IMG/VR virus record: IMGVR_UViG_3300047508_000090
Location: 1-45,856 of that record
Origin: a virus
DNA length: 45,856 nt
Reading direction: 5' to 3' (one strand)
This document shows, in pieces, positions 14,001-29,550 of this stretch (positions are counted from its first letter, which is position 1; every line of letters starts with the position of its first letter). The notes under the pieces were generated by a model, which saw only the letters and a program-made list of their open reading frames with translations, had not been told where the DNA came from and ran no database searches. A program made the position numbers and the translations under genes.

Positions 14001-14788
14001 TATCCTTTAGGTACTAGTCTTATTGCATCTTGTGATGCATCAATTGCATCTTGTAATATAAATGGTGTAAGTCTATTGCGTGCTAGATTTTTCTCCCGGA
14101 AATAAGCCCGTTTACGCTCTGTCTTATCATACACGCTCACTTTTCGGGAAGCCGCTAATTGGTTGATATCCTTCCATGAAATCCAGGCAATCAATGCTTC
14201 CTGTGCCATTATAGGCACTTTGAAATTCTCATCTGGCAAAGAAAGATATTCCAGGATGATATAATCATGATTGAAATTCGGATTTAGAACAATAGTACCA
14301 CTATCTGCATCTATCTCAAAGCTACCTTCACTCAGCAATTCATTGCCCGAAAGTCCAAATAACGTAACTCCATAATATCCATATGCAGGATTTGAGAAGT
14401 TTAAATAGAATAGGTCAATCGGTAGGCTTAGATCTGGTGGGCCGCTGGCATCTACCACTTTGGATAATCGCTTAGGATTATTAGCCGCCATTGTTGTCAA
14501 CTGCGGATTATGTTTCAATGTTGCAACTTCTCCACGACTATTTAATATCCCCACTTTGCTCCAATTAATATAATCCTCTGGTAATTGAGCTGTCTTATTT
14601 GCATCAACACATATCTCCACAGACTTTACCGCTCCTGTTGCGCCACCAGTTACATCGAATAGTAAATCAACAGCTCCACGCGCAGCAATTCCTCGAAGCC
14701 TACGATAAGTAGACTGATTCTGCATTGCTTCATCCTGATAGTAGGCTATAATCTTCTTTAAGGTCGTAAACTCTGCGGTTTCTCCCAT
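14000..14788 (-). CDS. Tail ring/tubular protein
   Basis: 262 residues. It has a helical N-terminus (residues 1-45), a beta-rich middle (VEICVDANKTAQLPEDYINWSKVGI), and a C-terminal helical part rich in basic residues (KTERKRAYFREKNLARNRL). The phrase LPEDYINWSKVG recalls the gp4/tubular-A-like ring proteins of podovirus tails. It overlaps the hub gene by one base and has three bases to its upstream neighbour. Probably one ring of the portal-tail assembly. Confidence 0.75.
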   Translation of the reverse strand: MGETAEFTTLKKIIAYYQDEAMQNQSTYRRLRGIAARGAVDLLFDVTGGATGAVKSVEICVDANKTAQLPEDYINWSKVGILNSRGEVATLKHNPQLTTMAANNPKRLSKVVDASGPPDLSLPIDLFYLNFSNPAYGYYGVTLFGLSGNELLSEGSFEIDADSGTIVLNPNFNHDYIILEYLSLPDENFKVPIMAQEALIAWISWKDINQLAASRKVSVYDKTERKRAYFREKNLARNRLTPFILQDAIDASQDAIRLVPKG

Positions 14789-14791
14789 ATA

Positions 14792-15433
14792 TTATCGCAT
14801 CTGTGGAGTCGGCTTTCCATCCTCCGATGAATCAATAGTAACATTCATTTGAATGCCCAATGTCTTATCAATGTACTCGATCATAAGCGGTAAATATGCG
14901 TCCGGTATATTCATCGGGGCATCAGGATCACTTGATTGACTGCTAATCATCCTCACATTTGCCTTGTATTTTGTAATATCGCTACATGAATGCAATGATG
15001 CAGTAGTGCCATTTACCCAAAAATATACCTCGTCGCACCCGCCATCAAGATCATACAAAAAATGCACCTCTCTCGGCGAAATCGGTTTTGCAAATATTTT
15101 AGCACCGCTGCCTGCTATCAACATGAAATCTGATATATCCCATCCAGCACCAATACCTACCGGTTGCTGCGGTAATGCGGCGCGATATTGACCAGAAACA
15201 GTATCTTTTGTTATTGTAATTCCTATAAATTCAGAATAAAAAGCATCTGAAATATTCTCGATGCCGTTAAGCTGTATTTCCTCCTTGTACTGGGCTTTAA
15301 CAGCATATCCCACGGCACTATTAATATATTGATTGATTAATCCCGAAGTCAATTCAGAATCCTGAGAAATTGTACCCCCAGATAATTGGCGTTGAACCAA
15401 TTCTATCAAATGTCGTCTTGTTGTAGCTGCCAT
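14792..15433 (-). CDS. Tail ring protein
   Basis: 213 residues. The helical N-terminus (RRHLIELVQRQLSGGTISQDSELTSG) is followed by a beta-rich core. The opening pattern, a helix and then a 'D-x-E-L' turn before IxQYINSAVG, is shared by many podovirus head-tail connector subunits. It is sandwiched between two other ring-type genes, with a one-base overlap at 15433. Assigned by context and fold impression only. Confidence 0.7.
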   Translation of the reverse strand: MAATTRRHLIELVQRQLSGGTISQDSELTSGLINQYINSAVGYAVKAQYKEEIQLNGIENISDAFYSEFIGITITKDTVSGQYRAALPQQPVGIGAGWDISDFMLIAGSGAKIFAKPISPREVHFLYDLDGGCDEVYFWVNGTTASLHSCSDITKYKANVRMISSQSSDPDAPMNIPDAYLPLMIEYIDKTLGIQMNVTIDSSEDGKPTPQMR

Positions 15434-16101
15434 TATTGACCATTATTTTTTGCCTCATTAAAATAGCCAGTTAAACTCTGAGCCTGGATGCTGATACCAA
15501 ACATAAATAACACCCTAATCATAATATCATTACATTCCAGATCGCCCCAAAGGCCCGTTGTTGATCCACCTAGGTCATATATAGGCCGTCCATCCACAAT
15601 AGTAAATCCATATATTACATCAGGGGCAACACGAATATATTCCCAATTGATATTCCCAATTGATACAGGAAATAATTTATAATAATTATCTTTTTCTGTA
15701 TATATTGGAGATTCGTCTATTGGATCAATTACTGATGACAAGTGAGATGCAATACGATCTTCCTCTACTCTCCATATTCTTTTTTTATCATCTGTTGTTC
15801 TCATGGAGAGAATATCTACCATATCAGGTGGTTTAAGCAAGTGTCCATCTCCTGATACAGTTACACCTTCTCCAACAACGATAAAAGGATCCAATTTCTG
15901 TTTAACTTGCTGCATATTGGCTGCCGGTAATTTGCCTCGTTTTCGATTAGCATCCCATCCTATGATTGTTTCAATAAGCTCATGTTGATATTGCTTCTGC
16001 GCAAGATTATAGGCATTTTGGAACTCCGATGGAGATAAATAACCCGACTGTTGCTTATTGGCAATGAAACGGCATAAATCGTACTGTAATCCAATATCCA
16101 T
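15433..16101 (-). CDS. Tail ring/connector protein, first gene of the tail operon
   Basis: 222 residues from the ATG at 16101 (MDIGLQYDLCRFIANKQQSG). A longer frame reaches 16155, but the shorter start is preferred because TATATTTG lies only five bases before it and the extra residues are not protein-like. The helical N-terminus with YLSPSEFQNAYNLAQ is typical of connector/ring proteins in Bacteroidetes podoviruses. It starts a continuous minus-strand unit running to 844 or beyond. The transcript is probably nearly leaderless. Confidence 0.75.
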   Translation of the reverse strand: MDIGLQYDLCRFIANKQQSGYLSPSEFQNAYNLAQKQYQHELIETIIGWDANRKRGKLPAANMQQVKQKLDPFIVVGEGVTVSGDGHLLKPPDMVDILSMRTTDDKKRIWRVEEDRIASHLSSVIDPIDESPIYTEKDNYYKLFPVSIGNINWEYIRVAPDVIYGFTIVDGRPIYDLGGSTTGLWGDLECNDIMIRVLFMFGISIQAQSLTGYFNEAKNNGQ

Positions 16102-16105
16102 ATAA

Positions 16106-16113
16106 CAAATATA
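16106..16113 (-). promoter_or_regulatory. Putative -7 element for the tail operon
   Basis: The minus strand reads TATATTTG, five bases upstream of the ATG at 16101, preceded by TTTGG. No clear -33 TTG is visible at 20-base spacing. It lies back to back with the plus-strand island promoter. Confidence 0.5.
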
Positions 16114-16147
16114 CCAAATAATTATGTGTGCAGATTGATGATTTTTC

Positions 16148-16190
16148 TTGGCCACTGTTGTTTCATTTGTTATATTTGCGCAAATGCAAA
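16148..16190 (+). promoter_or_regulatory. Promoter with overlapping palindromic operator, first plus-strand island
   Basis: A TTG (16148-16150), 20 bases, then TATATTTG (16171-16178) fits the Bacteroidetes -33/-7 promoter exactly. The -7 overlaps the 10-bp palindrome TTTGCGCAAA. The 20-mer TATATTTGCGCAAATGCAAA at 16171-16190 is repeated exactly at 26296-26315. The first plausible ATG follows four bases after it (16194), so the transcript leader would be very short. Confidence 0.65.
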
Positions 16191-16193
16191 CCT

Positions 16194-16679
16194 ATGAATG
16201 GGCTGAATCAAGATACTGAACTAAATAAAATTCCAGAGAGCGAAATAGTATATGCTAAAAATAGTATAATGTCAAATGCAAGGAGCCAACAATACTATTC
16301 ACCTGGAATATCCGATTTTTATATTGGATGTGAATTTGAGATTTCACAACATGGATCAGATAAATGGGAAACGGGAGCAAGTGATCCAACTGGACTGATT
16401 CATGTATATAAAACATGGAGAGAATATAATAGCCAATATAGGATTCCATACCTGACCGCAGAACAGATCGAAGCAGAAGGATGGACGCAGCAAATAAATG
16501 AGAATATATTTTTTATATCCATAAACTCTCTTTGTGGGTATAGAGTATATACAGAGCCGGAATTACATAGCATTGAAATTGAAAGGGTATTAATGGACAG
16601 TGATGATGTAATATACAAAGGACCATGCCGCTGTATCAACGATTTTAGACTAATTTGTAAACTATTAAACATTAACTAA
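16194..16679 (+). CDS. Hypothetical protein, first gene of plus-strand island 1
   Basis: 161 residues from ATG 16194 (MNGLNQDTELNK). An upstream ATG at 16128 would start before the promoter, and an internal one at 16270 (MSNARSQQYYSPGISDFYIG) is also possible. The motif SDFYIGCEFEI, a central TGLIHVYKTWREYNSQYRIPYLTAEQIEAEGW and a C-terminal RCINDFRLICKLLNIN give the look of a small soluble alpha/beta protein. Proteins of this style recur in Bacteroidetes phages; no function can be assigned. It overlaps the next gene as TAATG. Confidence 0.75.
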   Translation: MNGLNQDTELNKIPESEIVYAKNSIMSNARSQQYYSPGISDFYIGCEFEISQHGSDKWETGASDPTGLIHVYKTWREYNSQYRIPYLTAEQIEAEGWTQQINENIFFISINSLCGYRVYTEPELHSIEIERVLMDSDDVIYKGPCRCINDFRLICKLLNIN

Positions 16680-16852
16680 TGGCTATCGATTACGGTAAAG
16701 GAATCTCGAAGACAAACGAGAACATTTCCAAGATGAACAAAGCTGGAAAACATTTTATGGGTAAGAATGCGATGCAGGTAGCACCGGCTGCACCACCCAA
16801 ACCAGCACCAGCAACAAAACCAGTGTCAAAACCTAAATCAAAGAAAAAATGA
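16679..16852 (+). CDS. Small basic Pro/Lys-rich protein
   Basis: 57 residues from ATG 16679, missed by length filters. The N-terminus is MAIDYGKGISKTNENISKMN, with a Pro/Ala-rich middle and a KPKSKKK tail; overall strongly basic. It overlaps the previous stop (TAATG) and the next start (ATGA, 16849-16852), a tight translational coupling that argues it is expressed. Probably a small nucleic-acid-associated or virion protein; function unknown. Confidence 0.65.
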   Translation: MAIDYGKGISKTNENISKMNKAGKHFMGKNAMQVAPAAPPKPAPATKPVSKPKSKKK

Positions 16853-17007
16853 AAAAAGTAACTGGATTCAAATAAGTTCAGAAGAAAGTAGAAGGTGAAG
16901 GCTATAGTAAACAAGCAGCAGGAGCTATTGTGGCGTCTGCTGCCAGGAATGCTTCGCCGTCAGCCAAAGCAAAAAACAAAAACTTGTCCAAGGTGAAAGG
17001 TAAGTAG
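16849..17007 (+). pseudogene. Small basic phage protein interrupted by one in-frame TAA
   Basis: The frame reads MKKVTGFK, then TAA (16873-16875), then VQKKVEGEGYSKQAAGAIVA and on to SPSAKAKNKNLSKVKGK and a TAG at 17005. The part after the TAA looks intact and conserved-type: GYSKQAAGAIVASAARNASP...NPxLxKVKG is a pattern seen in small proteins of many phages. No ATG follows the TAA, so restarting is unlikely to rescue it. A single change (for example CAA to TAA) would explain it, as would readthrough. TAA is a normal stop elsewhere in the window. Confidence 0.6.
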
Positions 17008-17072
17008 CCTTTTATCATTGCGAAACTAACTGAACTATCCGGAATTACCGGATGGTATAAAAAAATTATACT

Positions 17073-17756
17073 TTGAAAGTGCCAAATAACAACATAGGAG
17101 AAAAGCGCCTTCTCGTTTCAACCTTTCCCGATCAGAAAGAAACGTTTCGCATAAAGAAAAATGATGGGACATATGGCAGTCTATTCCTTGGCTTTAAAGA
17201 GTGGAAATTAGACGGGTGGGAAGGCAATCCAACACTTGGTAAGGCGCTCATGGATTGCGACGAAATAAAGGCCGGAGATTACGTCCTGACATCACACAAT
17301 GCTTTCCAGAACGAGCGAATGCAGATTCAGCGGCACGATCTGGATAAATGCAATGTGTATGACCTGGAACCAGATGAGCAGGTATTTTCCATACCAAAGA
17401 GCTTTTGTTGGGTAGGCATTCGGGGAGAAGGTGAATTATTCTCCATTGGAGCTAGTTTAATCTGCAATCGCATCTACGAACCTGCAATAGAAACTATTCT
17501 GATTATTGAGGATAAAAAGAAGATGAAGAACTTCGTGCAAGTTAAACAGATGCCGGATAATCCAGGTCTATACTTTACCGAGGACAATGAGGTCTGCATG
17601 ACTGAAATAAGCGTGGGGGATATTATAGCGGTACACAAGAATGCAGACGTAGAGCATAAGTACGTGTGGGAAAACCAACCACGATCTCTTATCCGGGTTA
17701 ATTTTCAACGTGATTTTCTGTGCGTTCGTACAGAGGGATTAAAATATGAGTTATGA
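17073..17756 (+). CDS. Hypothetical protein, weak GroES-like impression
   Basis: About 227 residues. The frame has no ATG until about residue 60, so TTG at 17073 (or GTG two codons later) is the probable start. The protein is beta-rich with repeated turns of the form AGDYVLTS and, near residue 180, VGDIIAVHKN, which recall co-chaperonin GroES-type strands; this is weak and may be wrong. It ends four bases into the next gene (ATGA). No membrane or catalytic motif is seen. Confidence 0.65.
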   Translation: MKVPNNNIGEKRLLVSTFPDQKETFRIKKNDGTYGSLFLGFKEWKLDGWEGNPTLGKALMDCDEIKAGDYVLTSHNAFQNERMQIQRHDLDKCNVYDLEPDEQVFSIPKSFCWVGIRGEGELFSIGASLICNRIYEPAIETILIIEDKKKMKNFVQVKQMPDNPGLYFTEDNEVCMTEISVGDIIAVHKNADVEHKYVWENQPRSLIRVNFQRDFLCVRTEGLKYEL

Positions 17757-18118
17757 AGAAGCAGATTAACTTCATAGTTCCATTGGCGGTTTATCCATTT
17801 GATGTAATGTGTTCTTTTGGGGAATCGGACGATAAACTAAAGAGTGCGATACAGAAATATGGCGGCAAATGGAATAAAGTGATGATGATTAGTGAAAATG
17901 CAAAAGGAAGAACAGTTGTTTTAAATGGTGGTCAAACATTATTGCGACTATTTAAATATCCTATTGATTGTGAAGATTATGGCATATTGGCTCATGAAAT
18001 ATTCCACGCAGTAGATTTTCTAATGCGACGAATAAATATCAAATTAACAAAAAAATCCGATGAGGCTTATGCTTATCTGATTGGATACCTCACTGAGCAG
18101 ATTTATAAACGTCTTTAA
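17753..18118 (+). CDS. Metallopeptidase-like protein (LAHEIFH)
   Basis: 121 residues. YGILAHEIFHAVDFLMRRI at about residues 79-97 contains HExxH, and SDEAYAYLIGYLTEQIY downstream supplies a possible third acidic ligand (E of DEA). The same arrangement, a small protein with an HExxH followed by a DE-A-x-A-Y-L-xG helix, is common in phage zinc-peptidase-like proteins. It overlaps the previous gene by four bases and lies 11 bases before the AAA+ gene. The substrate is unknown. Confidence 0.75.
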   Translation: MKKQINFIVPLAVYPFDVMCSFGESDDKLKSAIQKYGGKWNKVMMISENAKGRTVVLNGGQTLLRLFKYPIDCEDYGILAHEIFHAVDFLMRRINIKLTKKSDEAYAYLIGYLTEQIYKRL

Positions 18119-18129
18119 CAAATAAAAGA

Positions 18130-19371
18130 ATGATTAACATTCAAGAAATACTGAATAACCCAATCTTAGGGACTGGATTGATAATGACTATCGGCGGTGG
18201 ATTGATATATTCATTGAAGGCATTACCTGGGCAGGCATGGAAAATCGTTAGCAAAAAGATATCTGCAAAACTCGTATACAGCGTTCGGATATATGAATAT
18301 GATGATCTATTCGAACTACTTGAAGCGTGGCTTCAAAAGAATCATCAGAAAGAATATAAGGATGTAGAAGGAAAATTGTTTTCTCCGAATAGTGAACCAC
18401 AAGCCGGGATTAAAAAGACGCCACAGATTTATTACAGCCAATCAACAAACGTATTTATTCTAAATGTGAATGGCAAGCGGCTCTTCATAACCAAAGAACG
18501 TGAAAAACTGGAATATGCTCAAAGCTTCAAATCTCTCTATGGTTATATCTATGTTATAAAGGGATTTAGAGGTAAAGAGGCGATTACCGAAATGCTGCAG
18601 GGGATAGTAAACGAGCATTATGATCAGTTCCCCAAGAATCAGATTCAGATAAGAACAAACGATAAATACGGCAATTGGGATCGCGCTAATTCTCTTACCG
18701 TTAAAGGATTGGAGAAGATAATCATTGATCCGGGATTAAAGACTATGCTGATGAATGATATTGATGAATTCAAGTTATCTAAGGATTGGTATCTTGAAAC
18801 ATCTATCCCTTATAAGAGAACCTATGCATTCCATGGCGGTCCAGGTAATGGTAAGACAAGCATTTGTTTAGCTATTGCCGTTTACACACAGCGGGATATA
18901 TACATATTGAATCCTTCTTCGTTAGAAGGTGACGCAGCATTACAGGCTGCATTTAATAACATAGGAAGTGATGTAGTATTAGTTATAGAAGACATAGATG
19001 CGTCCTTTACAAAACGTGATAGTGAATGTAATATTAGCTTTTCATGCCTATTAAACTGCACAGATGGCGCTTTTTATAAAGAAGGTCTGATTACCTGCAT
19101 CACGACCAATCATCTGGATAAATTAGATCCTGCGCTTCTTAGACCAGGAAGAACCGATATGATCATTGAAATAGACTTCCCTAAAGTACCACAGATTGAA
19201 AAATTCTTGTCAATATTCTACAAACAGGATATTTGCGTTGATTGCGATTGCGAAAATATCTTATTGTCTATGTCAAGTATTCAAGAGATTTGCATTACTA
19301 ATAAGAGCAATCCACAATCAGCAATAAATACAATAAAATCACAATTACTCACTAAACCAGTCTTCATATAA
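18130..19371 (+). CDS. Bcs1-like AAA+ ATPase
   Basis: 413 residues. A possible membrane helix lies at residues 13-30 (ILGTGLIMTIGGGLIYSL). A Bcs1-N-like region follows (residues 40-210), and then an AAA+ core with Walker A GGPGNGKTS at about 236, Walker B VVLVIEDIDAS at about 282, and the second region of homology LLRPGRTDM at about 336. Mitochondrial Bcs1 translocates a folded iron-sulfur protein; bacterial and phage relatives are uncharacterised or linked to defence contexts. Its partners here, a metallopeptidase-like gene just upstream and a small gene 12 bases downstream, suggest a protein-remodelling unit. Confidence 0.85.
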   Translation: MINIQEILNNPILGTGLIMTIGGGLIYSLKALPGQAWKIVSKKISAKLVYSVRIYEYDDLFELLEAWLQKNHQKEYKDVEGKLFSPNSEPQAGIKKTPQIYYSQSTNVFILNVNGKRLFITKEREKLEYAQSFKSLYGYIYVIKGFRGKEAITEMLQGIVNEHYDQFPKNQIQIRTNDKYGNWDRANSLTVKGLEKIIIDPGLKTMLMNDIDEFKLSKDWYLETSIPYKRTYAFHGGPGNGKTSICLAIAVYTQRDIYILNPSSLEGDAALQAAFNNIGSDVVLVIEDIDASFTKRDSECNISFSCLLNCTDGAFYKEGLITCITTNHLDKLDPALLRPGRTDMIIEIDFPKVPQIEKFLSIFYKQDICVDCDCENILLSMSSIQEICITNKSNPQSAINTIKSQLLTKPVFI

Positions 19372-19383
19372 AATCGTATACTA

Positions 19384-19662
19384 ATGGTAACTTCAATTCA
19401 AGAAATTATAGGGCTATCAAAAGAATTTAATAAATTTAAAACGGATAAAAAACGTCTTGACTATATTTATCAGCATAGAGATAAATTAAAGTTAATCTTG
19501 GATAATGATCAGACAAATGTAGAACCAATTTGCAATGAGGCATTAAGAGATGTTTGGCTTGGAAAGGATTTAGAGTTCAATTCATTTGATGAGTATATAG
19601 GATGGGCAGAAGGAGTATTTACACTGCTTGCTTTTTTTGGCATAAAAGCAGAAAGCGTATAA
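19384..19662 (+). CDS. Hypothetical protein, last gene of island 1
   Basis: 92 residues, helical and charged (FNKFKTDKKRLDYIYQHRDKLKLI), with a possible acidic Trp-containing C-terminal half (EALRDVWLGKDLEFNSFDEYIGWAEG). It starts 12 bases after the ATPase gene and ends just before a strong terminator. No family is recognised; it may act with the ATPase. Confidence 0.75.
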   Translation: MVTSIQEIIGLSKEFNKFKTDKKRLDYIYQHRDKLKLILDNDQTNVEPICNEALRDVWLGKDLEFNSFDEYIGWAEGVFTLLAFFGIKAESV

Positions 19663-19665
19663 ACA

Positions 19666-19695
19666 AAAGCCCCGACATTCACCGGGGCTTTATAT
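19666..19695. terminator. Bidirectional rho-independent terminator
   Basis: AAAGCCCCG (19666-19674), an 8-base loop, then CGGGGCTTT (19683-19691): a 9-bp stem, T-rich on the plus side and with TTTTGTTT on the minus side. It separates the convergent ATPase island and the 19719-20615 gene. Confidence 0.85.
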
Positions 19696-19718
19696 TGGGT
19701 ACTAAAGCAGGGTTACAA

Positions 19719-20615
19719 TTATTTCTCCATCGATTCTAAACGTCCACGTAATGCCTTGCCATCATTGGTAAGCATCAGTTCTGCCAGATAATCTGCAACC
19801 TTACCTTGATGGGATAATGGAACCTGACAGATATACGCCTTCGTATCAGCCCACAAACATTGACCATCAATGTAGATAATAAACGTTTTCTCGAAGGCTT
19901 TCTTCACTAGCATATGCATTTTAACAACTGGGTTGCTCACTGTTTTTAAGAACAGATCGGCCTTCTCTTCGGCATATTTAATGTAGTCATTTCTGAGTCC
20001 AGCTTCTGACTTAATCTCTCCCTGGTCATTGAGAAGATTACCACCCAGGTAAGCATAATGTACTGCAAGATCTTCCATCGTAGCCTTCCACGCCATGTCA
20101 ATAGCATCACGCTGCTTCTTCTTACGATCAAATTCCTTCTGTTCTGCAGCCTCGGTATCCAGTAACCGGTAACGGGTTTTACGGTTCTGAGCAGGTTTCT
20201 TACAACCTTCAAAATCGGAGCAACCCATCAGGAACTTTACAATATCCTCATTCATTGCGTTCACTACCATGCGGCCGTTAGAGAACGTCAATTGAACTGG
20301 GTTCCTTTTTACATAATTTGCATCCAGGTCTTTTTGTTCATCTTGCCAGATAGACCCGAATCCACGCAGTAGTCGTGCTTGACGTAGTTTCTGAGTATCA
20401 TCATCCCATATCATCTGAGAGTTTGATAAACTCAGTTGCGGATAGCGGATCGTCTTTGTTTCCGCGTCTACGGGGAAATTACCCACCATCTGAAAGATAT
20501 ATTCTTTAGGCGCTTTCTTAGGAGTTTTTATCACATCAGGCGTTTGGTCTTTCACTTCGCCTTTATCGCTCAAAATATTATCCAAATCAGTTAAACTTGA
20601 AGGAGGCTTTGCCAT
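19719..20615 (-). CDS. Conserved virion-module protein next to the capsid genes
   Basis: 298 residues. A charged, disordered N-terminus (PPSSLTDLDNILSDKGEV) leads to an alpha/beta body with KEYIFQMVGNFPVDAETKTIRYPQ and a Cys-containing loop (MGCSDFEGCKKPAQNRKTRY). No enzyme motif is visible. It has its own TATATTTG upstream and ends at a bidirectional terminator, so it is a single-gene unit beside the head genes. A head-associated or assembly role is inferred from position only. Confidence 0.75.
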   Translation of the reverse strand: MAKPPSSLTDLDNILSDKGEVKDQTPDVIKTPKKAPKEYIFQMVGNFPVDAETKTIRYPQLSLSNSQMIWDDDTQKLRQARLLRGFGSIWQDEQKDLDANYVKRNPVQLTFSNGRMVVNAMNEDIVKFLMGCSDFEGCKKPAQNRKTRYRLLDTEAAEQKEFDRKKKQRDAIDMAWKATMEDLAVHYAYLGGNLLNDQGEIKSEAGLRNDYIKYAEEKADLFLKTVSNPVVKMHMLVKKAFEKTFIIYIDGQCLWADTKAYICQVPLSHQGKVADYLAELMLTNDGKALRGRLESMEK

Positions 20616-20631
20616 AATATATAGTTTAAAG

Positions 20632-20639
20632 CAAATATA
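20632..20639 (-). promoter_or_regulatory. Putative -7 element for the 20615 gene
   Basis: The minus strand reads TATATTTG, preceded by TTAG. A TTTG (minus strand) lies about 17 bases further upstream, at 20657-20660, as a possible -33. The ATG follows 16 bases downstream of the element. Confidence 0.5.
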
Positions 20640-20670
20640 CTAATTTTACTTGTAAACAAATAGTTGACAA

Positions 20671-20698
20671 ACAAAAAGCCGGAACATTACGTCCCGGC
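20671..20698 (-). terminator. Rho-independent terminator after the decoration-like gene
   Basis: On the minus strand a GCCGG/CCGGC stem (20694-20698 with 20678-20682) around an 11-base loop is followed by TTTTTGTTTG. It closes transcripts from the 20728-21051 gene before the next unit. Confidence 0.75.
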
Positions 20699-20727
20699 CT
20701 ATTACTAACCCAAATAACAACGAGAAA

Positions 20728-21051
20728 CTATGCCTGTGCTATAATTTCAATACGATAAATACCTCCTATCCGCGCGATAGTGAGTTTTGAAGTCTTAGCG
20801 GCTACGGCTGATATAGCCGTAGATGGCCCAATAACTACGTTTGCACCACCAGCAGCGGCGGTAATGGTCAATGTACGACCAGCGGTAGCATCCTGTATTA
20901 CATACAAGGAAATTACTGCTCCTTCGTCCATACCATTAAGATTGATTGTTGTATTGCCGGTGAGGGTTCCATAGTACTTCTTACTGAAATAAACATCCAA
21001 AGTAAGCGTACCGGTCATGTTCCCCAGCGGTCTAGTTCTTTCGTAAGCCAT
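20728..21051 (-). CDS. Small beta-rich head decoration or fibre-like protein
   Basis: 107 residues, almost all beta-forming and rich in Thr, Ile and Ala: TLTGNTTINLNGMDEGAVIS, then LTITAAAGGANVVIGPSTAI. The repeating strand-turn pattern with few charged residues is typical of phage decoration or head-fibre domains. It lies immediately downstream of the major capsid gene, separated by a hairpin terminator, which would let it be made in a different amount from MCP. Role inferred. Confidence 0.75.
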   Translation of the reverse strand: MAYERTRPLGNMTGTLTLDVYFSKKYYGTLTGNTTINLNGMDEGAVISLYVIQDATAGRTLTITAAAGGANVVIGPSTAISAVAAKTSKLTIARIGGIYRIEIIAQA

Positions 21052-21103
21052 AGCCTTAAAGTTTTACCTTGTCCTGGAATAAAATATCTGCATAAAGGTA
21101 AAC

Positions 21104-21128
21104 AAAAAACCATGGAATAAATCCATGG
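21104..21128 (-). terminator. Terminator behind the major capsid gene
   Basis: On the minus strand CCATGG, 7 bases, CCATGG (21123-21128 with 21110-21115), followed by TTTTTTG. The 6-bp stem and T-run suggest a partial terminator between MCP and the decoration-like gene. Confidence 0.6.
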
Positions 21129-21130
21129 CC

Positions 21131-21162
21131 TTTGTGTGTTTAATATAAAATCATTACATTTG
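21131..21162 (+). promoter_or_regulatory. Plus-strand promoter pointing antisense into the capsid gene
   Basis: TTTG (21131-21134), 20 bases, TACATTTG (21155-21162): a full match to the Bacteroidetes -33/-7 layout. The nearest gene on that side is the 3' end of MCP on the opposite strand (stop at 21178), so any transcript would be antisense. Confidence 0.4.
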
Positions 21163-21177
21163 ATATACCACATATTA

Positions 21178-22554
21178 CTATGCAGCCTCCAATATAATCC
21201 ATTGATTTGCAGCGAATTGTCTAACACCACAGTACTGTAACCAGTGTACGGCAAGTTCTGCAACCTCAGTCTTATTGCCGCCCTGAGCATATCCACCGGT
21301 TTCCCAGGTATTCAATGCAGGGAAGCCTGGAACACTGTTAGAAACGATACTGATAGACGGAACAGATACTTTACGAACTGGGTCTGTAAATTGTTTCTGT
21401 GGCACCAACCAACCGAAGTTTCTGAATTCAGGAGCAGCTACAGTTGCAGCAGCACCATATACAGCTTCTGGGCTGAACAGGCGCTCATTGCGCAGATGGA
21501 ATACAACCCCACCGATTTCGATAGATGAGAATCCATATCCGATAGCGATATCGGAAGATCCACCTACAGAATTCCAGATGATAGCACCGCCATTGTAGGT
21601 CTGGAATATCTCATTGTCAACTTCTTGACGCTGGAAGATATCCATGAGCCAGTGGTATTCTGCAGCACCTCCGTTGAACTCTATCGCACGAACTACTTCC
21701 TGAATCTTTGGAATGTCCAAAGCACCGGGAGTATATGTGATAGTCTGTCCATCGACACGGGTACGAGGAATTGCACCTTGTGTACCCAATGAACCGCCCA
21801 ATGCGCCCAGATTATCAGCAGTGTCGCCCATCAAGAGCTTGAATGCTTTATCATTCATGAAGCGACGTTGAGTTTCGTCCATTCCTTTGTACTTGTAGTA
21901 CGGTTGGCCATCATATTCAAAGATCAATTGCTCGATCATTGAAAGATCGGTCTGTCTCCAACATTCACGAATCTCAGTGGTGGTGTTGGTGATCTTTCTT
22001 TCACGTCCGATCATAGGATCAGGGGCGGAAGAGCGTTCACCAGCTTCAGTAACACCTTTAAATTCTAGCAACTCACCTGCTAACAGGTTAGCGGAACCGG
22101 AAGAAACGAAAGCGAGAGTGGTTTTCTCAGGACGGATAACAGCAGAGTGTGCATTAGGCGTACCCTTATTGACACTTACTACTTTACCCTCAACGCCGCT
22201 AGAAGAAACTCTTACAACTTCCCCAACACGCCAAGGCGATTGAGTACCGGATGTTGCGTGGTCAGCAGCAGTTGCTACAACAGTAACATCAGTACCGGCA
22301 GCAGGAGCTACAACGGCAGTCTGAACACTTACTTTAGGATGCAACTTTCCTACATTTTCGTAGTGGAAATATGTTTTACCAGGAACATCTTCGGTTTTAC
22401 CGAGCATTTCCAGGATGGTAATATATGATTGCGGACCATAATTTTGAACGAAATCTTTATAACAGTGCGGTGCAAGCATTTGCAGGTCTGTCAAAAGCAG
22501 GCCCCGGTTTGCGACCGGGAGCGATATTGCTGATGGTAATCCAGGAGCAGCCAT
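21178..22554 (-). CDS. Major capsid protein
   Basis: 458 residues, starting MAAPGLPSAISLPVANRGLLLTDLQMLAPHC. Size, lack of enzymatic motifs, mixed alpha/beta composition and the place directly downstream of portal and scaffold-like genes fit the HK97-fold capsid protein of crAss-like phages. Features include a Trp/Arg-rich middle (IRECWRQTDLSMIEQLIFEYDGQPYY) and a conserved-looking PEFRNFGWLVPQKQF near the C-terminus. It is followed by a hairpin terminator. The call rests on gene order plus general likeness. Confidence 0.85.
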   Translation of the reverse strand: MAAPGLPSAISLPVANRGLLLTDLQMLAPHCYKDFVQNYGPQSYITILEMLGKTEDVPGKTYFHYENVGKLHPKVSVQTAVVAPAAGTDVTVVATAADHATSGTQSPWRVGEVVRVSSSGVEGKVVSVNKGTPNAHSAVIRPEKTTLAFVSSGSANLLAGELLEFKGVTEAGERSSAPDPMIGRERKITNTTTEIRECWRQTDLSMIEQLIFEYDGQPYYKYKGMDETQRRFMNDKAFKLLMGDTADNLGALGGSLGTQGAIPRTRVDGQTITYTPGALDIPKIQEVVRAIEFNGGAAEYHWLMDIFQRQEVDNEIFQTYNGGAIIWNSVGGSSDIAIGYGFSSIEIGGVVFHLRNERLFSPEAVYGAAATVAAPEFRNFGWLVPQKQFTDPVRKVSVPSISIVSNSVPGFPALNTWETGGYAQGGNKTEVAELAVHWLQYCGVRQFAANQWIILEAA

Positions 22555-22580
22555 GGTGATTATTTTTTAGTTTTTTAATA

Positions 22581-23756
22581 TTACCCTGCTTGGAAGAACT
22601 TCTTAGAGAATTCTCTAAGTTCTGCATCCGCGCTAGGTGTGAAATCGTTTCTCTGAGCGCCGTCCAAATTCACGTTTTTCTGTGCTGCCAATTGTGATTT
22701 GCGATCTTGCGCAATAGCTTGTTTTACTGTATTAGCCATTATTTTCTCCTTGTTATTCAGCCAGTATATATCTGATACCAACTGATTGGTGTCGTATGCA
22801 TCGCCCTTGATGTATCGCGACAGGAGAACGTCATTTACCAAGTCTTTCTCCATTAGATCCTTCTTCATATTCGCTACTTCCGTAGGGTCTATGGCATAAC
22901 TTACATCGACCTTGACACCCTCGTCATCGATCTTGAAAGGTATGGTTGTGAATTCGCTGGCGGATTTTTCCAGACTTGTGTCATACAGATTTTTCCATTT
23001 GGCAGCTTCTTGGGCTTGCGCTAACAAAGTAGCCTCGTCAGGACCAGTTTGCGCATTCGCCGGTGGAGCGGTGTGTATATCAGGTAAAACGATATTCGAT
23101 TTGAGTGAGCTGAGTTCGGAACGGGCCTCCGCAGCATCAAGTTTGAGTTGCCTGTCTAATTTGGCCTGCTGTTTTTCATACGACTTCATTTCTTTGTCAT
23201 ATGACTTAACGGCTACCTTGTAGGCATCGTCGTCAATGTATTCGCTCTCATCCGGAGCTTCTGGCTTTTCAGCCTTATATTTTGACTCGAATTCCTCAGC
23301 AATGTCATTGTGATCGAAATTCGAGTTCTTAAATTCTAATTGTAGTTTAATAGCATCGGCATCTGATACTTTATCAAGGTTAGATAACCGGTATTGGTCA
23401 TTTAGAACTTGACGAACATCGTCCAGCTTACCGTCCTTTATATATTGTGCAAGTTTTCTTGATTCCTCATTTTCGAAGGCCAGTTCTGCAGGCGTAGGCT
23501 GTTCGGTTAATTTACTTTGTATTTCATCCCAAGAATTAAACTTGCCGCCGGTACGTTCTGCCCAGTCAATCTCTGTAGTTGTAGGTGTGTCCGTAGTTGG
23601 TGGCACAACTGCTGCTGGCGGTTCGACAACGGCAGTATCAATAGTTGCAGTTGCTTCTACCGCAGGAACTACTACCGCGTCAGCGGGAGGCGTTGCTATC
23701 TTCTGTCCACTAGCATCATACGATGCCCCGTTCTCAGGATTGAATATGTTTGACAT
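22581..23756 (-). CDS. Scaffold-like protein
   Basis: 391 residues. A low-complexity Pro/Ala/Thr-rich N-terminus (residues 15-65) leads to a highly charged helical body with coiled-coil stretches (YKVAVKSYDKEMKSYEKQQA) and a basic/Gln-rich end. Acidic, helical, placed between portal and MCP: the classic profile of a phage scaffolding protein. No protease motif is seen. It lies 26 bases before the capsid gene. Confidence 0.8.
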   Translation of the reverse strand: MSNIFNPENGASYDASGQKIATPPADAVVVPAVEATATIDTAVVEPPAAVVPPTTDTPTTTEIDWAERTGGKFNSWDEIQSKLTEQPTPAELAFENEESRKLAQYIKDGKLDDVRQVLNDQYRLSNLDKVSDADAIKLQLEFKNSNFDHNDIAEEFESKYKAEKPEAPDESEYIDDDAYKVAVKSYDKEMKSYEKQQAKLDRQLKLDAAEARSELSSLKSNIVLPDIHTAPPANAQTGPDEATLLAQAQEAAKWKNLYDTSLEKSASEFTTIPFKIDDEGVKVDVSYAIDPTEVANMKKDLMEKDLVNDVLLSRYIKGDAYDTNQLVSDIYWLNNKEKIMANTVKQAIAQDRKSQLAAQKNVNLDGAQRNDFTPSADAELREFSKKFFQAG

Positions 23757-23776
23757 GTGTTGTTATTTGGTATACA

Positions 23777-23784
23777 CAAATTTA
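23777..23784 (-). promoter_or_regulatory. Putative -7 element for scaffold and capsid genes
   Basis: The minus strand reads TAAATTTG preceded by TTAG, like the element at 20632. It lies 20 bases upstream of the ATG at 23756. No good -33 is found at 20-base spacing. Confidence 0.4.
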
Positions 23785-23810
23785 CTAATAATAAATATTT
23801 AACTGTAAAA

Positions 23811-23835
23811 TTTGTTTTCGTGAAATTTCACGTTA
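23811..23835. repeat. Perfect 14-bp palindrome in the portal-scaffold gap
   Basis: CGTGAAATTTCACG (23819-23832) is perfectly self-complementary and is flanked by T-rich sequence on one side and A-rich sequence on the other. It may be a weak terminator or a protein-binding site just past the portal stop codon. Confidence 0.5.
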
Positions 23836-23838
23836 AAA

Positions 23839-26241
23839 TTATGCTACTTGTTGTTGCGGCATCTGGTCCGATTGTGGTTGGCCCTGCTGTGGGCCTCCTT
23901 GTTGCGGCTGTCCTTGACCTTGTTCCTGCTGTTGCTGCATAATCTGATCTGTAGCCTCCGCCTGATCCTGCTCCTGGTTAGCTTTATCCTCAAAGTAAGA
24001 ATCCACTATATCCTGAATATTGGGCGGTAATGGCCGCTGCTGTTCGAATGATAGTGTGAGCATTTGCTGTACCCAATTTTGTAGGGAAAGATCAGCAGCC
24101 CCTTTATTCGTAGTAGTCATTACCGCCATCTTGCCTTGATATTCTAATTGCAATTCCTGCTGCTTGGCTTGTGAGGTCGCGGCTGCTGATGCCTGCTGTT
24201 GTTCAGTGGTAGCCTTCATATTCGCCAAACCATCCTCCATTGTCTGTTTACGCTTTTTCTTCTGAGCGCGGGATAGGTAAAGTTCTTTTAGCTTAATATT
24301 ACGAATATTACCAATTTTAAATGCGTCTTGAAAGTCTATTAATCCGGCAGTGAGCGCCGCTTGTACCTGCGCATCTACACGCTGTTGCTGCTGTTCGTCT
24401 GGCAGCATTTCCACATTTACATCGAAACGCTTATCATCCAGCGCTTCATCACCAACAATATGCCGGTAAGCCTGCCCACCAAACATCACATTGTCCCAAA
24501 GCAGGATGGCAATATTTCGGCAAACGTTCTGCATGATTGACAAATAACCTTCATATATGAACTCGTTCGCCCGGTTAGAGGCGGCTACCTGGTTATCCAT
24601 CACACCTAACCCTAACTTAGGATTCACCGCCTGCCCTTCGGTGTATTCATTAGTCCCTACGTCCTGCCTAACACGTTCAAGATTGAAATTATAAACGCTG
24701 ATTAGCTGCTGGAATTGAGCGATAGAGGCTCCATTTGGCAACTCAGTAATGGGCATCTGCTGACGGGTTTCACCATCCTCTTTGAACGATCGATACCACA
24801 CATTACCCGTCTGATCATAGACCTTCATCAATTCCAGTGGGGTGATTTGTCCCCCACCTAAACCTAAGTCAAGATCATTCAGACCATTAATATCTACCGC
24901 AATACCGGGTGGCCTTAACTTCGCCATTAACACCTGGATCTTCAAAAGAGCCACCGTCATGTTATTAATGGAAGTTTCCATGCGTTCGCACATAGTACGA
25001 TTGGTCATCTTCCTATTCTTCGGCATGTATAAGCAAAAACTGAAATACACATCCGAAAGGTTACTCTGAGGGCGGATCATGTTCTGCATTAGCTCCCAGC
25101 AAAAGAGTTTGCCCAGCCGACGCACATAATATCCTCTGTAAATATTATAGATTTGCTTAACGACAACTTCTTTATTGTCGGATAGCTCTTTAGGCTTCTT
25201 ATCTTTCTTGTCAACCGCTATCAGCTTACCGTAACTATTGGTTTTAGCCGTGTAGTAGTCGTTATCTACTGTTTTGAACTCGAAGTCCATTACTTCTATT
25301 TCCCAGTCGTCATAAGGTCGGTACATAGAATTGTTCCAATCGTTGTTCCAAGTTAGTAAACTATTGTATCCAGGTGAATCGCTGGCGGCTTTCTTGATAT
25401 CATCGAAAAGGTTCTGTTCCGCGGCAGCTTCCCCGAATGCCTTAATATAGTCCTTGGCAAATCTGGCCCGGTATTCCGGCACCTTCATCTTATATAATTC
25501 ACCGCAATAGGTCAAATCCCGGAAATCATTCTGTTCAGACCATGAATAGAACAGATTTTCTGGCTTGCACTCCCTGACCTTAATTAGCCCATTCACATCG
25601 ATATAGGTTCTGGCACCTGCCAATCCGGCCTCTATCAAATCCTCTATCATTTTCCGCTTACGAACAGGTGACCAGTCATTATCCATCAACACCCAGTCAA
25701 TGCCTTTTTCAAATCGTATCTCTTCTGGCAATTGGTATTCGTAACCAAAGTGGAATTCAAGATCATCCTTATCATCCGGAACGTATGCGGAAGGATCTTC
25801 TACCGGTACACCGGCTTGTCCCTGTATATTATTGATCAGGTCTTTATTCTCCATGCGGAACTCCGCTTCTTTCTTTGAGTAGTCTTTTCGGTTAATAGAT
25901 ACCGGATCAACGGCTTCCGCGCTGGCATGCTCATCACGCTCCATAAACCGCTGGCAGATTATATCTACGTACTTAGGCGCGATCATCGGTGGCGTAAGAT
26001 CCACGTTAATAAATGAGTTCTTCCCTTCTATATTCATCAAGTCTAGGAACTTAGCCATGTCCTGCTCTCCGGCTGCGATCTTCCTGCTACGCTCTATCTT
26101 CTTATTTCGTTTGAGGTAATATCCATTAAACCCACTTTGAATAGTCGAGTCGATGGATTTAGCGATAAGTAATCCGAACTTAGGATCTGCCTTTTCCTTA
26201 TTAGTGCCTTTATGGAAGTCGAGTATCCGGTTATCGCTCAT
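23839..26241 (-). CDS. Portal protein
   Basis: 800 residues, starting MSDNRILDFHKGTNKEKADPKFG. The charged N-terminal half contains TPPMIAPKYVDIICQRFMER and a DWVLMDNDWSPVRKRKMIEDL segment. A long middle helix region (around GASIAQFQQLISVYNFNLERVRQDVGTNEYTEGQ) matches portal stems. The C-terminal 120 residues are Gln-rich (QQQQEQGQGQPQQ), as in crAss-like portals. It is the first gene of the head operon, with TATATTTG 16 bases upstream. Forms the DNA entry ring of the capsid. Confidence 0.9.
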   Translation of the reverse strand: MSDNRILDFHKGTNKEKADPKFGLLIAKSIDSTIQSGFNGYYLKRNKKIERSRKIAAGEQDMAKFLDLMNIEGKNSFINVDLTPPMIAPKYVDIICQRFMERDEHASAEAVDPVSINRKDYSKKEAEFRMENKDLINNIQGQAGVPVEDPSAYVPDDKDDLEFHFGYEYQLPEEIRFEKGIDWVLMDNDWSPVRKRKMIEDLIEAGLAGARTYIDVNGLIKVRECKPENLFYSWSEQNDFRDLTYCGELYKMKVPEYRARFAKDYIKAFGEAAAEQNLFDDIKKAASDSPGYNSLLTWNNDWNNSMYRPYDDWEIEVMDFEFKTVDNDYYTAKTNSYGKLIAVDKKDKKPKELSDNKEVVVKQIYNIYRGYYVRRLGKLFCWELMQNMIRPQSNLSDVYFSFCLYMPKNRKMTNRTMCERMETSINNMTVALLKIQVLMAKLRPPGIAVDINGLNDLDLGLGGGQITPLELMKVYDQTGNVWYRSFKEDGETRQQMPITELPNGASIAQFQQLISVYNFNLERVRQDVGTNEYTEGQAVNPKLGLGVMDNQVAASNRANEFIYEGYLSIMQNVCRNIAILLWDNVMFGGQAYRHIVGDEALDDKRFDVNVEMLPDEQQQQRVDAQVQAALTAGLIDFQDAFKIGNIRNIKLKELYLSRAQKKKRKQTMEDGLANMKATTEQQQASAAATSQAKQQELQLEYQGKMAVMTTTNKGAADLSLQNWVQQMLTLSFEQQRPLPPNIQDIVDSYFEDKANQEQDQAEATDQIMQQQQEQGQGQPQQGGPQQGQPQSDQMPQQQVA

Positions 26242-26257
26242 AATGTATATGTTACTA

Positions 26258-26265
26258 CAAATATA
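26258..26265 (-). promoter_or_regulatory. Putative -7 element for the head operon
   Basis: The minus strand reads TATATTTG, 16 bases upstream of the portal ATG at 26241. It is back to back with the island 2 promoter, a divergent arrangement like that at 16106/16171. Confidence 0.5.
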
Positions 26266-26274
26266 ACACTAAAT

Positions 26275-26315
26275 TATATTTGAGTAAACGTGAAATATAT
26301 TTGCGCAAATGCAAA
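26275..26315 (+). promoter_or_regulatory. Tandem plus-strand -7 elements with palindromic operator, island 2
   Basis: TATATTTG occurs at 26275-26282 and again at 26296-26303. The second copy is part of the exact 20-mer TATATTTGCGCAAATGCAAA (26296-26315), shared with the island 1 promoter. The -33 region of the second copy is poor (no TTG at 20-base spacing), so the palindrome may matter more than -33 contacts. Confidence 0.6.
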
Positions 26316-26416
26316 ACGTATCCTATCTTTGAATGGTGAAGATGATCGAGTGAATGTTATCCAACCATTGAATAAGAGGCTTGGTTGTATCCTGCAAGTC
26401 AGACCAAGCCTCTTTT
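26303..26416 (+). ncRNA. Candidate short RNA between promoter and terminator
   Basis: Transcription from the 26296 element would start near 26310 and meet a 12-bp hairpin at 26374-26414 within about 110 bases. No open frame of useful length lies between them. It may be a small regulatory RNA or an attenuated leader for the island. Predicted from signals only. Confidence 0.4.
26374..26416 (+). terminator. Strong hairpin terminator
   Basis: AAGAGGCTTGGT (26374-26385) pairs perfectly with ACCAAGCCTCTT (26403-26414) across a 17-base loop and is followed by TT. It lies only about 70 bases after the predicted start of transcription. Confidence 0.75.
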
Positions 26417-26656
26417 AAAGATCTTTTCTTGCGATTGGCGTAAGATTGTTTTGGTGTATAATTTTATCCTGCGTATTCTTACCCGGGATTACTTTTAAAA
26501 AGTTCTTTCAAATATATTCTAGTAATAAAGTTATGTAGCATGATTGTGTATCAGCATGCCGTGAGTAAACGGAAACACGTAAAAACCTAAACAGGCAGGT
26601 GATAGCCTTAAAATGGTCAACACGCGGCTACTGCGCAATAAAAAGTGTAGCAAAAT
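26417..26656. other. Gene-free leader region before the tRNA
   Basis: No open frame of note. It contains TTTAAAAAGTTCTTT (26494-26508), a near copy of which lies in the right-hand leader at 41494-41510. GTTCTTTGA-type motifs are common in non-coding leaders of Bacteroidetes. The role here is unknown. Confidence 0.5.
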
Positions 26657-26738
26657 GGTTTATCGCCGAAGCGGGAGAGTCGGGCCAGACTGTAAATCTG
26701 GTGCTTTAGCTGAAAAGGTTCGAATCCTTTATATTCCA
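26657..26738 (+). tRNA. tRNA-Tyr (GTA anticodon), weak acceptor stem
   Basis: The anticodon arm is clear: CCAGA-CTGTAAA-TCTGG, anticodon GTA. A variable arm of about 12 bases (class II, as in bacterial tRNA-Tyr) is followed by a perfect T-arm, AAAGG-TTCGAAT-CCTTT. The D-arm (CCG/CGG with GG in the loop) is acceptable. The acceptor stem GGTTTAT/ATATTCC has two adjacent T-T mismatches, and CCA is not encoded (ACCG follows). It is either a divergent phage tRNA or one beginning to decay. Confidence 0.65.
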
Positions 26739-26844
26739 CCGGGGTTAAAATAAACAATGGATGAAAGACGGCGGTTTGCCTTGTACATTCCGCCATTTCT
26801 TTTAAAATCGAACATTGTCCAGTTTCCGCATAGTAAAACCAAGC

Positions 26845-26873
26845 AAGTCCGGCAGAAAGTGTCGGACTTATTT
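26845..26873 (+). terminator. Hairpin, possible terminator after the tRNA
   Basis: AAGTCCG (26845-26851), an 11-base loop, CGGACTT (26863-26869), then ATTTT. A moderately strong stem placed between the tRNA and the next promoter. Confidence 0.5.
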
Positions 26874-26882
26874 TAAGAAAAG

Positions 26883-26915
26883 TTTTGCGCGGGTTATATA
26901 ATATCATTACATTTA
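26883..26915 (+). promoter_or_regulatory. Candidate promoter for the pseudoknot RNA and HNH gene
   Basis: TTTTG (26883-26887), 20 bases, TACATTTA (26908-26915). It matches the Bacteroidetes layout except for A in place of the final G. The expected start of transcription, about 26920, coincides with the first strand of the structured element. Confidence 0.4.
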
Positions 26916-26918
26916 CAA

Positions 26919-27034
26919 TGCGAAACAGATGTAAAAATATTACAGCATCACACCTAATGGTGTAAGTCCATCAAACTCATATTACTGACATTATTCTCTT
27001 CCTCTTGTCGGCTGTTTCGCAGGGATGTGATGCT
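26919..27034 (+). ncRNA. Pseudoknot-like structured RNA upstream of the HNH gene
   Basis: Two long perfect complementarities interleave. TGCGAAACAG (26919-26928) pairs with CTGTTTCGCA (27012-27021), and AGCATCACA (26944-26952) pairs with TGTGATGCT (27026-27034). Inside lies a small hairpin, ACACC-TAAT-GGTGT (26950-26963), which competes with the second pairing. The interleaved order means a pseudoknot or two mutually exclusive folds. It could be a 5' regulatory leader or part of a mobile RNA element. Confidence 0.5.
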
Positions 27035-27057
27035 ATTGTTTTTTATGCGAAATAGTA

Positions 27058-27711
27058 ATGAAGAAGATTATAATTCCATCTTTACCAAATTATTCAATTG
27101 ACATCCTAGGGAGAGTATATAAGCACTCAGGAAATATAGATAAACTATTAGAGAACACTTTTCAAGGGTCTAAACTAATAGTTGATATTTCTGGGAAAAG
27201 TTATGACATCTTCTATCTGCTCATAGAAGCATATTGCATAGTCATCACACCTACAGATAGAATTAAATTTAGAATTAATAAAAAGCATAAAACATTAGCA
27301 CTGGCATCGATTAGAATAACCAAGATAAAAGAAAGGGAGTTCTATGGATCACCAGAAGAAAAGGACATGTCAATATATGGATGTTCTCGTAAGGCAAGCA
27401 ATGCTAATATCAGATTTAATGAGAAGATAAGTGCTGTTGAAATTTATTCTGTAATTAAGACACAGAACTTTACATGTTATTATTGCGATTCAAAATTAGA
27501 ACCTGACAAGTGGCAAATAGATCATTTTTATTCTAAATCACATGGAGGTAAAAATGTATTCGCAAATTTAGTTGCGTCTTGTGAATGTTGTAATAGGATG
27601 AAGCATACATTAGACGGAAGGCAATTTGTGAAAAAATGCGTTATGATATCTAGTAATTTACAATACTTATTATCTGTTCATAATGATCCTAAAAAAGATA
27701 AAGTAATATAA
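27058..27711 (+). CDS. HNH endonuclease (homing-type)
   Basis: 217 residues. The N-terminus (IPSLPNYSIDILGRVYKH) resembles the NUMOD4-like opening of homing HNH enzymes. The C-terminal HNH core has CYYC at about 140, IDHFYSKSHGGKNVFANLV at about 157-175, and CECCNRMK closing the zinc knuckle. All core His/Asn/Cys residues are present, so it should be active. It stands alone between two non-coding structured stretches, the usual setting of a selfish endonuclease inside a structured RNA or intergenic space. Confidence 0.85.
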   Translation: MKKIIIPSLPNYSIDILGRVYKHSGNIDKLLENTFQGSKLIVDISGKSYDIFYLLIEAYCIVITPTDRIKFRINKKHKTLALASIRITKIKEREFYGSPEEKDMSIYGCSRKASNANIRFNEKISAVEIYSVIKTQNFTCYYCDSKLEPDKWQIDHFYSKSHGGKNVFANLVASCECCNRMKHTLDGRQFVKKCVMISSNLQYLLSVHNDPKKDKVI

Positions 27712-28027
27712 ACTATTTTTATAGTCATCCGTTTGACAGTTAGCTGAAATACTAACAATCGTGGTTGTAACCTGGAAGACCGGGTGCTGGATACGAAACG
27801 GAGGAGCCTAGCTTGATCGCTAGTGACAACTTAGTTGTAGTTTGTGAGATTGATTTAGCGAGACGAAAACGAAACGACCGACCGACAAAGAGTCATTGCT
27901 GTCCTACCTCTCTTACTTAATTGTGAGGGAGGACTAAGGAGGGTTTTGCTCTACAGCTCCTCTCTTCTCACTACTCCCTCTAAAGAGTTAACGTTTTATA
28001 ATCTTACATTTAAATAAAAAAATACGT
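27712..28027 (+). other. Structured non-coding stretch downstream of the HNH gene
   Basis: No credible open frame in about 315 bases. Several hairpins are visible: GTTAG..CTAAC (around 27740-27757), ACCTGG-AAGA-CCGGGT (around 27770-27785), CTAGC-TTGATC-GCTAG (around 27808-27823), and long purine/pyrimidine-rich complementary tracts (GTGAGGGAGG versus CTCCCTC and CCTCTCTTCTCAC, 27920-27985). GC content is higher than in flanking genes. It may be the 3' half of an RNA element interrupted by the HNH gene. Confidence 0.45.
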
Positions 28028-28300
28028 ATGACAGAAATAATTAAAATATCACATAGTTCCAAAGGAATAATTATAGATATTCCAACTAGTTTACTTGTAA
28101 ATGCGGCGAATGGTCATCCCGATGGTCTTATAGTGACGGATGAAGTTGGATTTATTGAGGAAGTTGCCTTTCTTTTAGAAAACGACCTTGGAGGGGATTC
28201 GGCTTCAAACGCATTAACTGGTCTACAAGAATTACTGGACAAGGCCATAGAATCCTGTTCAGAAAGTGGAACAAGTGTTGATCTGAAAGAAAACAATTAA
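28028..28300 (+). CDS. Hypothetical protein
   Basis: 90 residues, acidic. A short beta N-terminus (IIKISHSSKGIIIDIPTSLLVNA) is followed by a helical C-terminal half (SNALTGLQELLDKAIESCSES). First coding gene after the non-coding stretch and the start of a tightly packed run of small genes. No family is recognised. Confidence 0.75.
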   Translation: MTEIIKISHSSKGIIIDIPTSLLVNAANGHPDGLIVTDEVGFIEEVAFLLENDLGGDSASNALTGLQELLDKAIESCSESGTSVDLKENN

Positions 28301-28312
28301 ATCGCTTTTGAA

Positions 28313-28558
28313 ATGAACAATTCAATCACTGTAGATCAAACTGATTACTTTAACACATATAGCCTTTCAACTGATGGTTATACGTTCAAATATCGTCCTG
28401 ATAAATATGATAGTGACTGTATTAGGGCCGATCTTTATAAAGGGGAAAACCTTGTATCAAGCGTTAGGGTAAGTGCTGGATATGGATTACCGCATAGACC
28501 GCATCATAATGTAATCAACTTTTTTGAGTCGGAAATAACACTTGGAAGAATCAAATGA
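28313..28558 (+). CDS. Hypothetical protein
   Basis: 81 residues, beta-rich (YFNTYSLSTDGYTFKYRPDKYDSD), with a His/Pro-rich turn (GYGLPHRPHHNVI). It overlaps the next gene by four bases (ATGA). Function unknown. Confidence 0.75.
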   Translation: MNNSITVDQTDYFNTYSLSTDGYTFKYRPDKYDSDCIRADLYKGENLVSSVRVSAGYGLPHRPHHNVINFFESEITLGRIK

Positions 28559-28815
28559 AGAACAAGGCAGAAATATTGCAGTACATGGATCAGGGCGAGG
28601 AAATCCGGTTACTTCGTAGATTGATGGGCGTAAAGGCTGGCGAAATAGCAAAGCGTATCGGTCAAGGACAAGGTAACTATTCGAAGATGGAAAGCGGGTA
28701 TTTAAAAAACACCAATGTCCTTGTCTTGGTAAGACTGATGTACAACGAATGGTGTGAGAAGGAGATAATTTCTTTTCATAAACGCATCGAGTATTTAAAA
28801 TCGTTGATCAAATGA
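28555..28815 (+). CDS. Small HTH (XRE-type) DNA-binding protein, copy 1
   Basis: 86 residues. IRLLRRLMGVKAGEIAKRIG followed by QGQGNYSKMESGYLKNTNV is a Cro/C1-type helix-turn-helix (residues 17-55). A C-terminal helix ends in HKRIEYLKSLIK. The next gene is a clear paralogue with the same ending, and the two overlap by four bases, so this is a tandem duplication. Possible regulator of the island promoter palindromes; not shown. Confidence 0.8.
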   Translation: MKNKAEILQYMDQGEEIRLLRRLMGVKAGEIAKRIGQGQGNYSKMESGYLKNTNVLVLVRLMYNEWCEKEIISFHKRIEYLKSLIK

Positions 28816-29075: not shown

Positions 29076-29080
29076 ATAAC

Positions 29081-29305: not shown

Positions 29306-29550
29306 AAGTTTACATAACGAAGTACTGGCAGACAAAGGGGATTATCGAAGCGGAGAAGGTAGATAAAAATACTAGTGAGGAAAAAGTTATCTGGGCTAAA
29401 TTGGATGGTCGATATGAAGATATCTTCTCTATAGGAAACGATTCTTTCTACACAGAAGATGAAGCCATAACACAAATTCGTATCAAAGCCAAGAAGAAGA
29501 TTACACAGCTTGAAAAGACGATAACTAAATTAAAGAAGATTTTACAATGA
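29302..29550 (+). CDS. Hypothetical protein
   Basis: 82 residues. A beta-rich N-terminal half (VYITKYWQTKGIIEAEKVDK) is followed by a basic coiled-coil-like C-terminus (RIKAKKKITQLEKTITKLKKIL). Start and stop both overlap the neighbours by four bases. No family is recognised. Confidence 0.7.
   Translation: MKVYITKYWQTKGIIEAEKVDKNTSEEKVIWAKLDGRYEDIFSIGNDSFYTEDEAITQIRIKAKKKITQLEKTITKLKKILQ

Follow-up and report, generated by a model that had tools for sequence, protein, structure and literature searches.

A palindromic candidate operator within the core elements of three rightward promoters in a phage of Bacteroidota-type bacteria

Two groups of rightward genes interrupt the leftward virion genes of the 45,856-base virus record IMGVR_UViG_3300047508_000090 (the stretch analysed here, hereafter the window), and each opens with the same 20 bp, which raises the question of whether these units share one control and, if so, which protein exerts it. 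The minus-strand genes lie at 301-16101, 19719-26241 and 30893-40395, and the plus-strand genes at 16194-19662 (island A), 26657-30891 (island B) and from 41591 onward (the right-hand unit), with exactly three divergent minus/plus gaps, at 16102-16193, 26242-27057 and 40396-41590. The virus is a phage of Bacteroidota-type bacteria, whose terminase resembles those of Flavobacterium 'elemo' (Elemovirus) and Cellulophaga podoviruses (29% identity over 97%), and whose portal, ring and head proteins match PHROG head-and-packaging families. Annotated phage records contained no close relative of this phage and no match to its ring protein or to the XRE-type protein encoded at 28812; scans of viral contigs with the portal and XRE proteins gave few relatives, and a portal scan of genomes gave none. 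The nearest DNA is IMG/VR 3300037068_000045 (G001, 26 kb), with approximately 80-88% nucleotide identity across most homologous stretches; its sequence stops short of the third site described below, and the comparison covers the sites of islands A and B. Further off are G002 (78 kb, with direct terminal repeats and a portal of 63% identity) and two other relatives more distant than G001, L029 and L036. No completeness estimate accompanies the record; the window may therefore be only part of a genome, whose remainder could carry further sites or the actual regulator. At 45632-45856 a repeat with a 12-bp period (GGCTACGGCGAC and variants) almost reaches the right end of the window, and is possibly an assembly break point.

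The shared sequence TATATTTGCGCAAATGCAAA, placed by the preliminary description at 16171-16190 (site A) and 26296-26315 (site B), both on the plus strand, is indeed exact at both positions, and no third copy with up to three mismatches was found in the window (0 in 100 shuffles). It consists of a promoter -7 element, TATATTTG, fused to a candidate operator, CGCAAATGCAAA, which completes a 12-bp palindrome, ATTTGCGCAAAT (16174-16185 at site A, 26299-26310 at site B), and is followed by a third half-site, GCAAA. Three copies of the 10-bp core TTTGCGCAAA are present in the window, at 16175, 26300 and 41359, the last being site C (41359-41368, plus strand), and there is no further site in the window with up to one mismatch; 400 dinucleotide shuffles gave a mean of 0.08 copies and a maximum of two. 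Each divergent gap holds one palindrome, and the scan for copies within genes that had been proposed as a check found none (0 of 3). As in an operator-defined regulon, one palindrome is thus found at several promoters, above chance and outside genes, and the sites are non-random and sit only at plus-strand promoters. A limited set of full-text literature searches for the 10-mer or the site returned only unrelated papers, with nothing on the site.

Where the palindrome lies with respect to the promoters can be judged from the elements recognized in these bacteria. Bacteroidota promoters have two elements, TTTG at about -33 and TAnnTTTG at about -7; transcription starts 4-5 nt beyond the latter, which is much the stronger signal (PMC6847099). 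On the plus strand of the window, perfect TATATTTG occurs only at 16171, 26275, 26296 and 41383, all within divergent gaps. Of the five minus-strand copies, those at 836, 16113, 20639 and 26265 each closely precede a leftward gene, and the fifth is at 26516. The bare count (9 seen vs 5.2 expected, with at least 9 in 34 of 400 shuffles) is not clearly enriched, and the argument therefore rests on position: because four of the five minus-strand copies lie just upstream of leftward genes and the plus-strand ones lie only at A, B and C, TATATTTG is taken as a real -7 element here. The combined pattern TTTG-N20-TAHHTTTG was found three times vs 0.18 expected, with the palindrome in two of the three.

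Promoter C (TTTG-N20-TATATTTG, 41359-41390, plus strand), which serves the right-hand unit (genes from ~41591), matches the Bacteroidota sigma-ABfr consensus exactly, and promoter A (TTGG-N19-TATATTTG, 16148-16178, plus strand), found by the promoter scan ahead of the island A genes (16194/16269-19662), has a perfect -7. Site B can be read in an alternative register, B2 (TTTG-N20-TATCTTTG, 26300-26331, plus strand), which matches exactly and puts the palindrome on the -33, with a -7 that is degraded in G001 (TACCTTCG). The preliminary description had set the palindrome core at the -33 of the right-hand promoter, and this placement holds at 41359 (41359-41362 being the -33 TTTG); at 16171 the palindrome falls instead on the -7/start region, and 26296 allows either register. 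A -33 operator at all three sites was rejected, since A lacks a -7 at the required spacing and that of B2 is degraded in G001; the palindrome at B probably covers the -7 and start as at A. Thus the palindrome overlaps the core promoter on the -7/start at A and on the -33 at C and, unlike in ordinary sigma-ABfr promoters, part of a core element in the window doubles as a putative operator half-site. A leader peptide starting from the ATG inside the 20-mer was also considered and dropped, the ATG being missing at site A of G001.

The leftward promoters lack the palindrome, and the regulon as seen therefore consists of the rightward units. The portal promoter (TTTA-N19-TATATTTG, 26258-26288, minus strand) is without it and is identical in G001, and the ring gene has a leftward -7, TATATTTG (16106-16113, minus strand), with an ATG 4 nt on and a leaderless-looking layout that is shared with G002. 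The arrangement TATATTTG-N4-ATG is seen at the ring gene both in the window (16099-16113) and in L030 (ring-gene start 18350), which suggests that the ring-gene mRNA is leaderless, and conserved as such, across both phages.

From the observed sequences, positions, conservation and overlap with promoters, we infer, with somewhat more confidence than doubt, that one dimeric sequence-specific regulator, most likely a phage repressor, has the three sites as its operators, which lie within the core elements of three rightward promoters. Where the -7 TATATTTG runs into the palindrome, at A and in the simplest reading also at B, the protein would sit over both the -7 and the start, while at C the first half-site would double as the -33 TTTG. 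Operators on the -7/start or the -33 are classic repressor positions at bacterial promoters. The bound regulator would block host sigma-ABfr RNA polymerase, such that the right-hand unit, island B and island A would be shut off together, with the palindrome-free leftward virion promoters remaining on. The same overlap of 20-mer and core promoter could be read as an activator site, or as a phage-specific extended promoter class consisting of the -7 and a required downstream CGCAAANGCAAA, that switches on the rightward units at a given stage; the 20-mer does start at the -7 element, and conservation ends on its right side exactly with GCAAA at both A and B. However, the palindrome at C has no -7 ahead of it and occupies the -33 of a different perfect promoter, binding of activators is normally upstream of core elements and not on the -7/start, and searches covering part of the window's genes turned up neither a phage sigma factor nor a phage RNA polymerase, all of which makes such a site appear unlikely.

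Conservation bears on the repressor reading at two of the sites. G001 carries exactly two sites, at the junctions homologous to A and B, and thus at homologous promoters: site A there is TATATTTGCGCAAAAGCAAA, with 19/20 positions identical to the window within the 20-mer and 12/20 directly after it, and site B is identical (20/20, followed by 11/20). The block that follows site B (26316-26335, 11/20 identical) is an exception in noncoding DNA with 90-100% identity between the two. Conservation at B extends over almost all of the noncoding DNA and so does not single out the site. In G001 the first island A codon (TTG) comes 20 nt past the start of TTTG, which leaves no room for a later promoter; the palindrome there must therefore cover the -7/start region, with the start site at the 20-mer. 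In the 78 kb of G002 there is no exact palindrome site; its island A promoter retains the -7 (TACATTTG), followed by AGAAAACC, without the palindrome, and the promoter may well therefore be older than the operator. The comparison also bears on whether the repeats are a promoter cassette copied along with the islands, a relic of shared ancestry with no common regulator. Each of the two exact copies marks an island boundary, and the downstream words CCTAT..GAATGG are loosely alike at A and B in the window, as copying would have it; yet G001 retains both sites though the adjoining DNA has diverged, and C has only the palindrome in common with them and in another promoter register, an arrangement not expected from copying. 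We regard such copying as highly improbable.

The islands themselves, previously described as accessory cassettes, do behave as such. In G002, L029 and L036 the terminase-portal gap is only ~55-110 bp and lacks island B, and in G002 island A is shorter and lacks the AAA ATPase; the islands therefore vary between relatives, island B being absent from three distant ones. The ATPase of island A (18130-19371) is BCS1-like, with distant relatives in jumbo phages of Tenacibaculum and others. Island B contains a tRNA-Tyr (GTA) at 26657-26740 on the plus strand, and the same slot in G001 (L003:12994-13095, minus strand) holds a different, longer tRNA-like gene of 102 nt (Rfam tRNA, 41 bits), as if tRNA cassettes had been swapped.

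With regard to the regulator, the best candidates, and most likely the proteins that act on these sites, are the small XRE-type protein or proteins of island B, judged from co-occurrence across three genomes: there are two such genes in the window, one in G001 and none found in G002, and the site follows the same distribution. The first protein (28555-28815, plus strand, 86 aa) is a putative small helix-turn-helix protein that scores 19.9 bits against Pfam HTH_3, below the curated cut-off of 23. Its paralog (28812-29075, plus strand, 87 aa), of which there is a single ortholog in G001 and none found in G002, has no Pfam match at E up to 0.1; its predicted model is an HTH bundle (pLDDT 94), and its best Foldseek matches are ClgR, Cop, C.Esp1396I and HipB, at a probability near 1, but with E above 0.05 and TM of ~0.5; C.BclI and lambda repressor are also among the nearest solved folds. 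Such a protein would help to silence its own island. A regulator encoded by the host, whose operator the phage has borrowed so that the rightward units answer a host signal, would accord with the host-type promoter elements, and the site is a clean palindrome for which the phage regulator is only a candidate. Against this, the presence of the site tracks that of the XRE gene in the three genomes compared, and a scan of IMG/VR with the 16-mer TTTGCGCAAATGCAAA gave 21 matches, about the number expected by chance for the size of the collection by our estimate, which are mostly unrelated or coding (several being one recurrent coding sequence), with G001 as the sole real relative. A host regulator thus appears quite improbable.

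How directly promoter B serves these genes is another matter. A strong hairpin followed by a U-rich tail (26374-26414, plus strand, z = -4.8), conserved in G001 with a compensatory T-A to G-C change, may serve to terminate a short RNA transcribed from promoter B, and two more hairpins (26762-26804 and 26845-26869, plus strand) separate the tRNA from the protein genes. Upstream of the HNH gene there is also a promoter-like TTTG-N20-TACATTTA with a half-operator, TTTGCGC (26884-26915, plus strand), which is not conserved in G001. With three hairpins between promoter B and the protein genes, B may first yield a short RNA, and the XRE genes may be served by another promoter; the hairpins and the promoter-like sequence at 26884 therefore weaken simple self-regulation through B. 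The preliminary interpretation is thus supported in part: the sites are non-random, are conserved in G001 and overlap core promoters, and the islands behave as accessory modules, but a common regulator, its XRE identity and co-induction of the units are predictions, and the simple view that B drives island B is challenged.

The leaders of promoters B and C have features of their own. The leader of promoter C (41391-41520) folds strongly (-34.5 kcal/mol, z = -4.1), and AAAAAGTTCTTT is found at 26497-26508 and 41499-41510, only in the leaders of the plus-strand promoters B and C (2 vs 0.025 expected); it is absent from the 26-kb G001 sequence and from G002. We take AAAAAGTTCTTT to resemble the rrn boxA antitermination elements. 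The boxA reading was set aside as a resemblance only, a genome scan having given three matches with no rRNA gene at those loci. It is a rather doubtful idea that a short, structured and terminated RNA (~26308-26416) arises from promoter B under the operator that also controls two protein-coding units, and that the boxA-like elements (AAAAAGTTCTTT) of the B and C leaders would add Nus-type antitermination readthrough, taken from the host rRNA system, to repression.

The shared palindrome is real, but as a probable switch it is a fairly ordinary kind of phage gene control. The operators of Cro/CI-type phages, of C-proteins in restriction-modification systems and of HipB, all of the XRE family, are likewise short palindromes placed over core promoter elements at several promoters, and the window is like these systems in having a small HTH candidate regulator within one of the units. 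It differs from them in its Bacteroidota -33/-7 promoters, in its mixed operator registers (-7/start and -33) and in that the regulator is a candidate; no lysogeny genes were seen among the searched proteins of the window. Little seems to be recorded on the timing of genes in Bacteroidota phages, and an operator inside sigma-ABfr elements together with a candidate phage regulator provides a case in which this can be tested directly, and might also supply Bacteroidota genetics with a tight and portable repressor-promoter pair.
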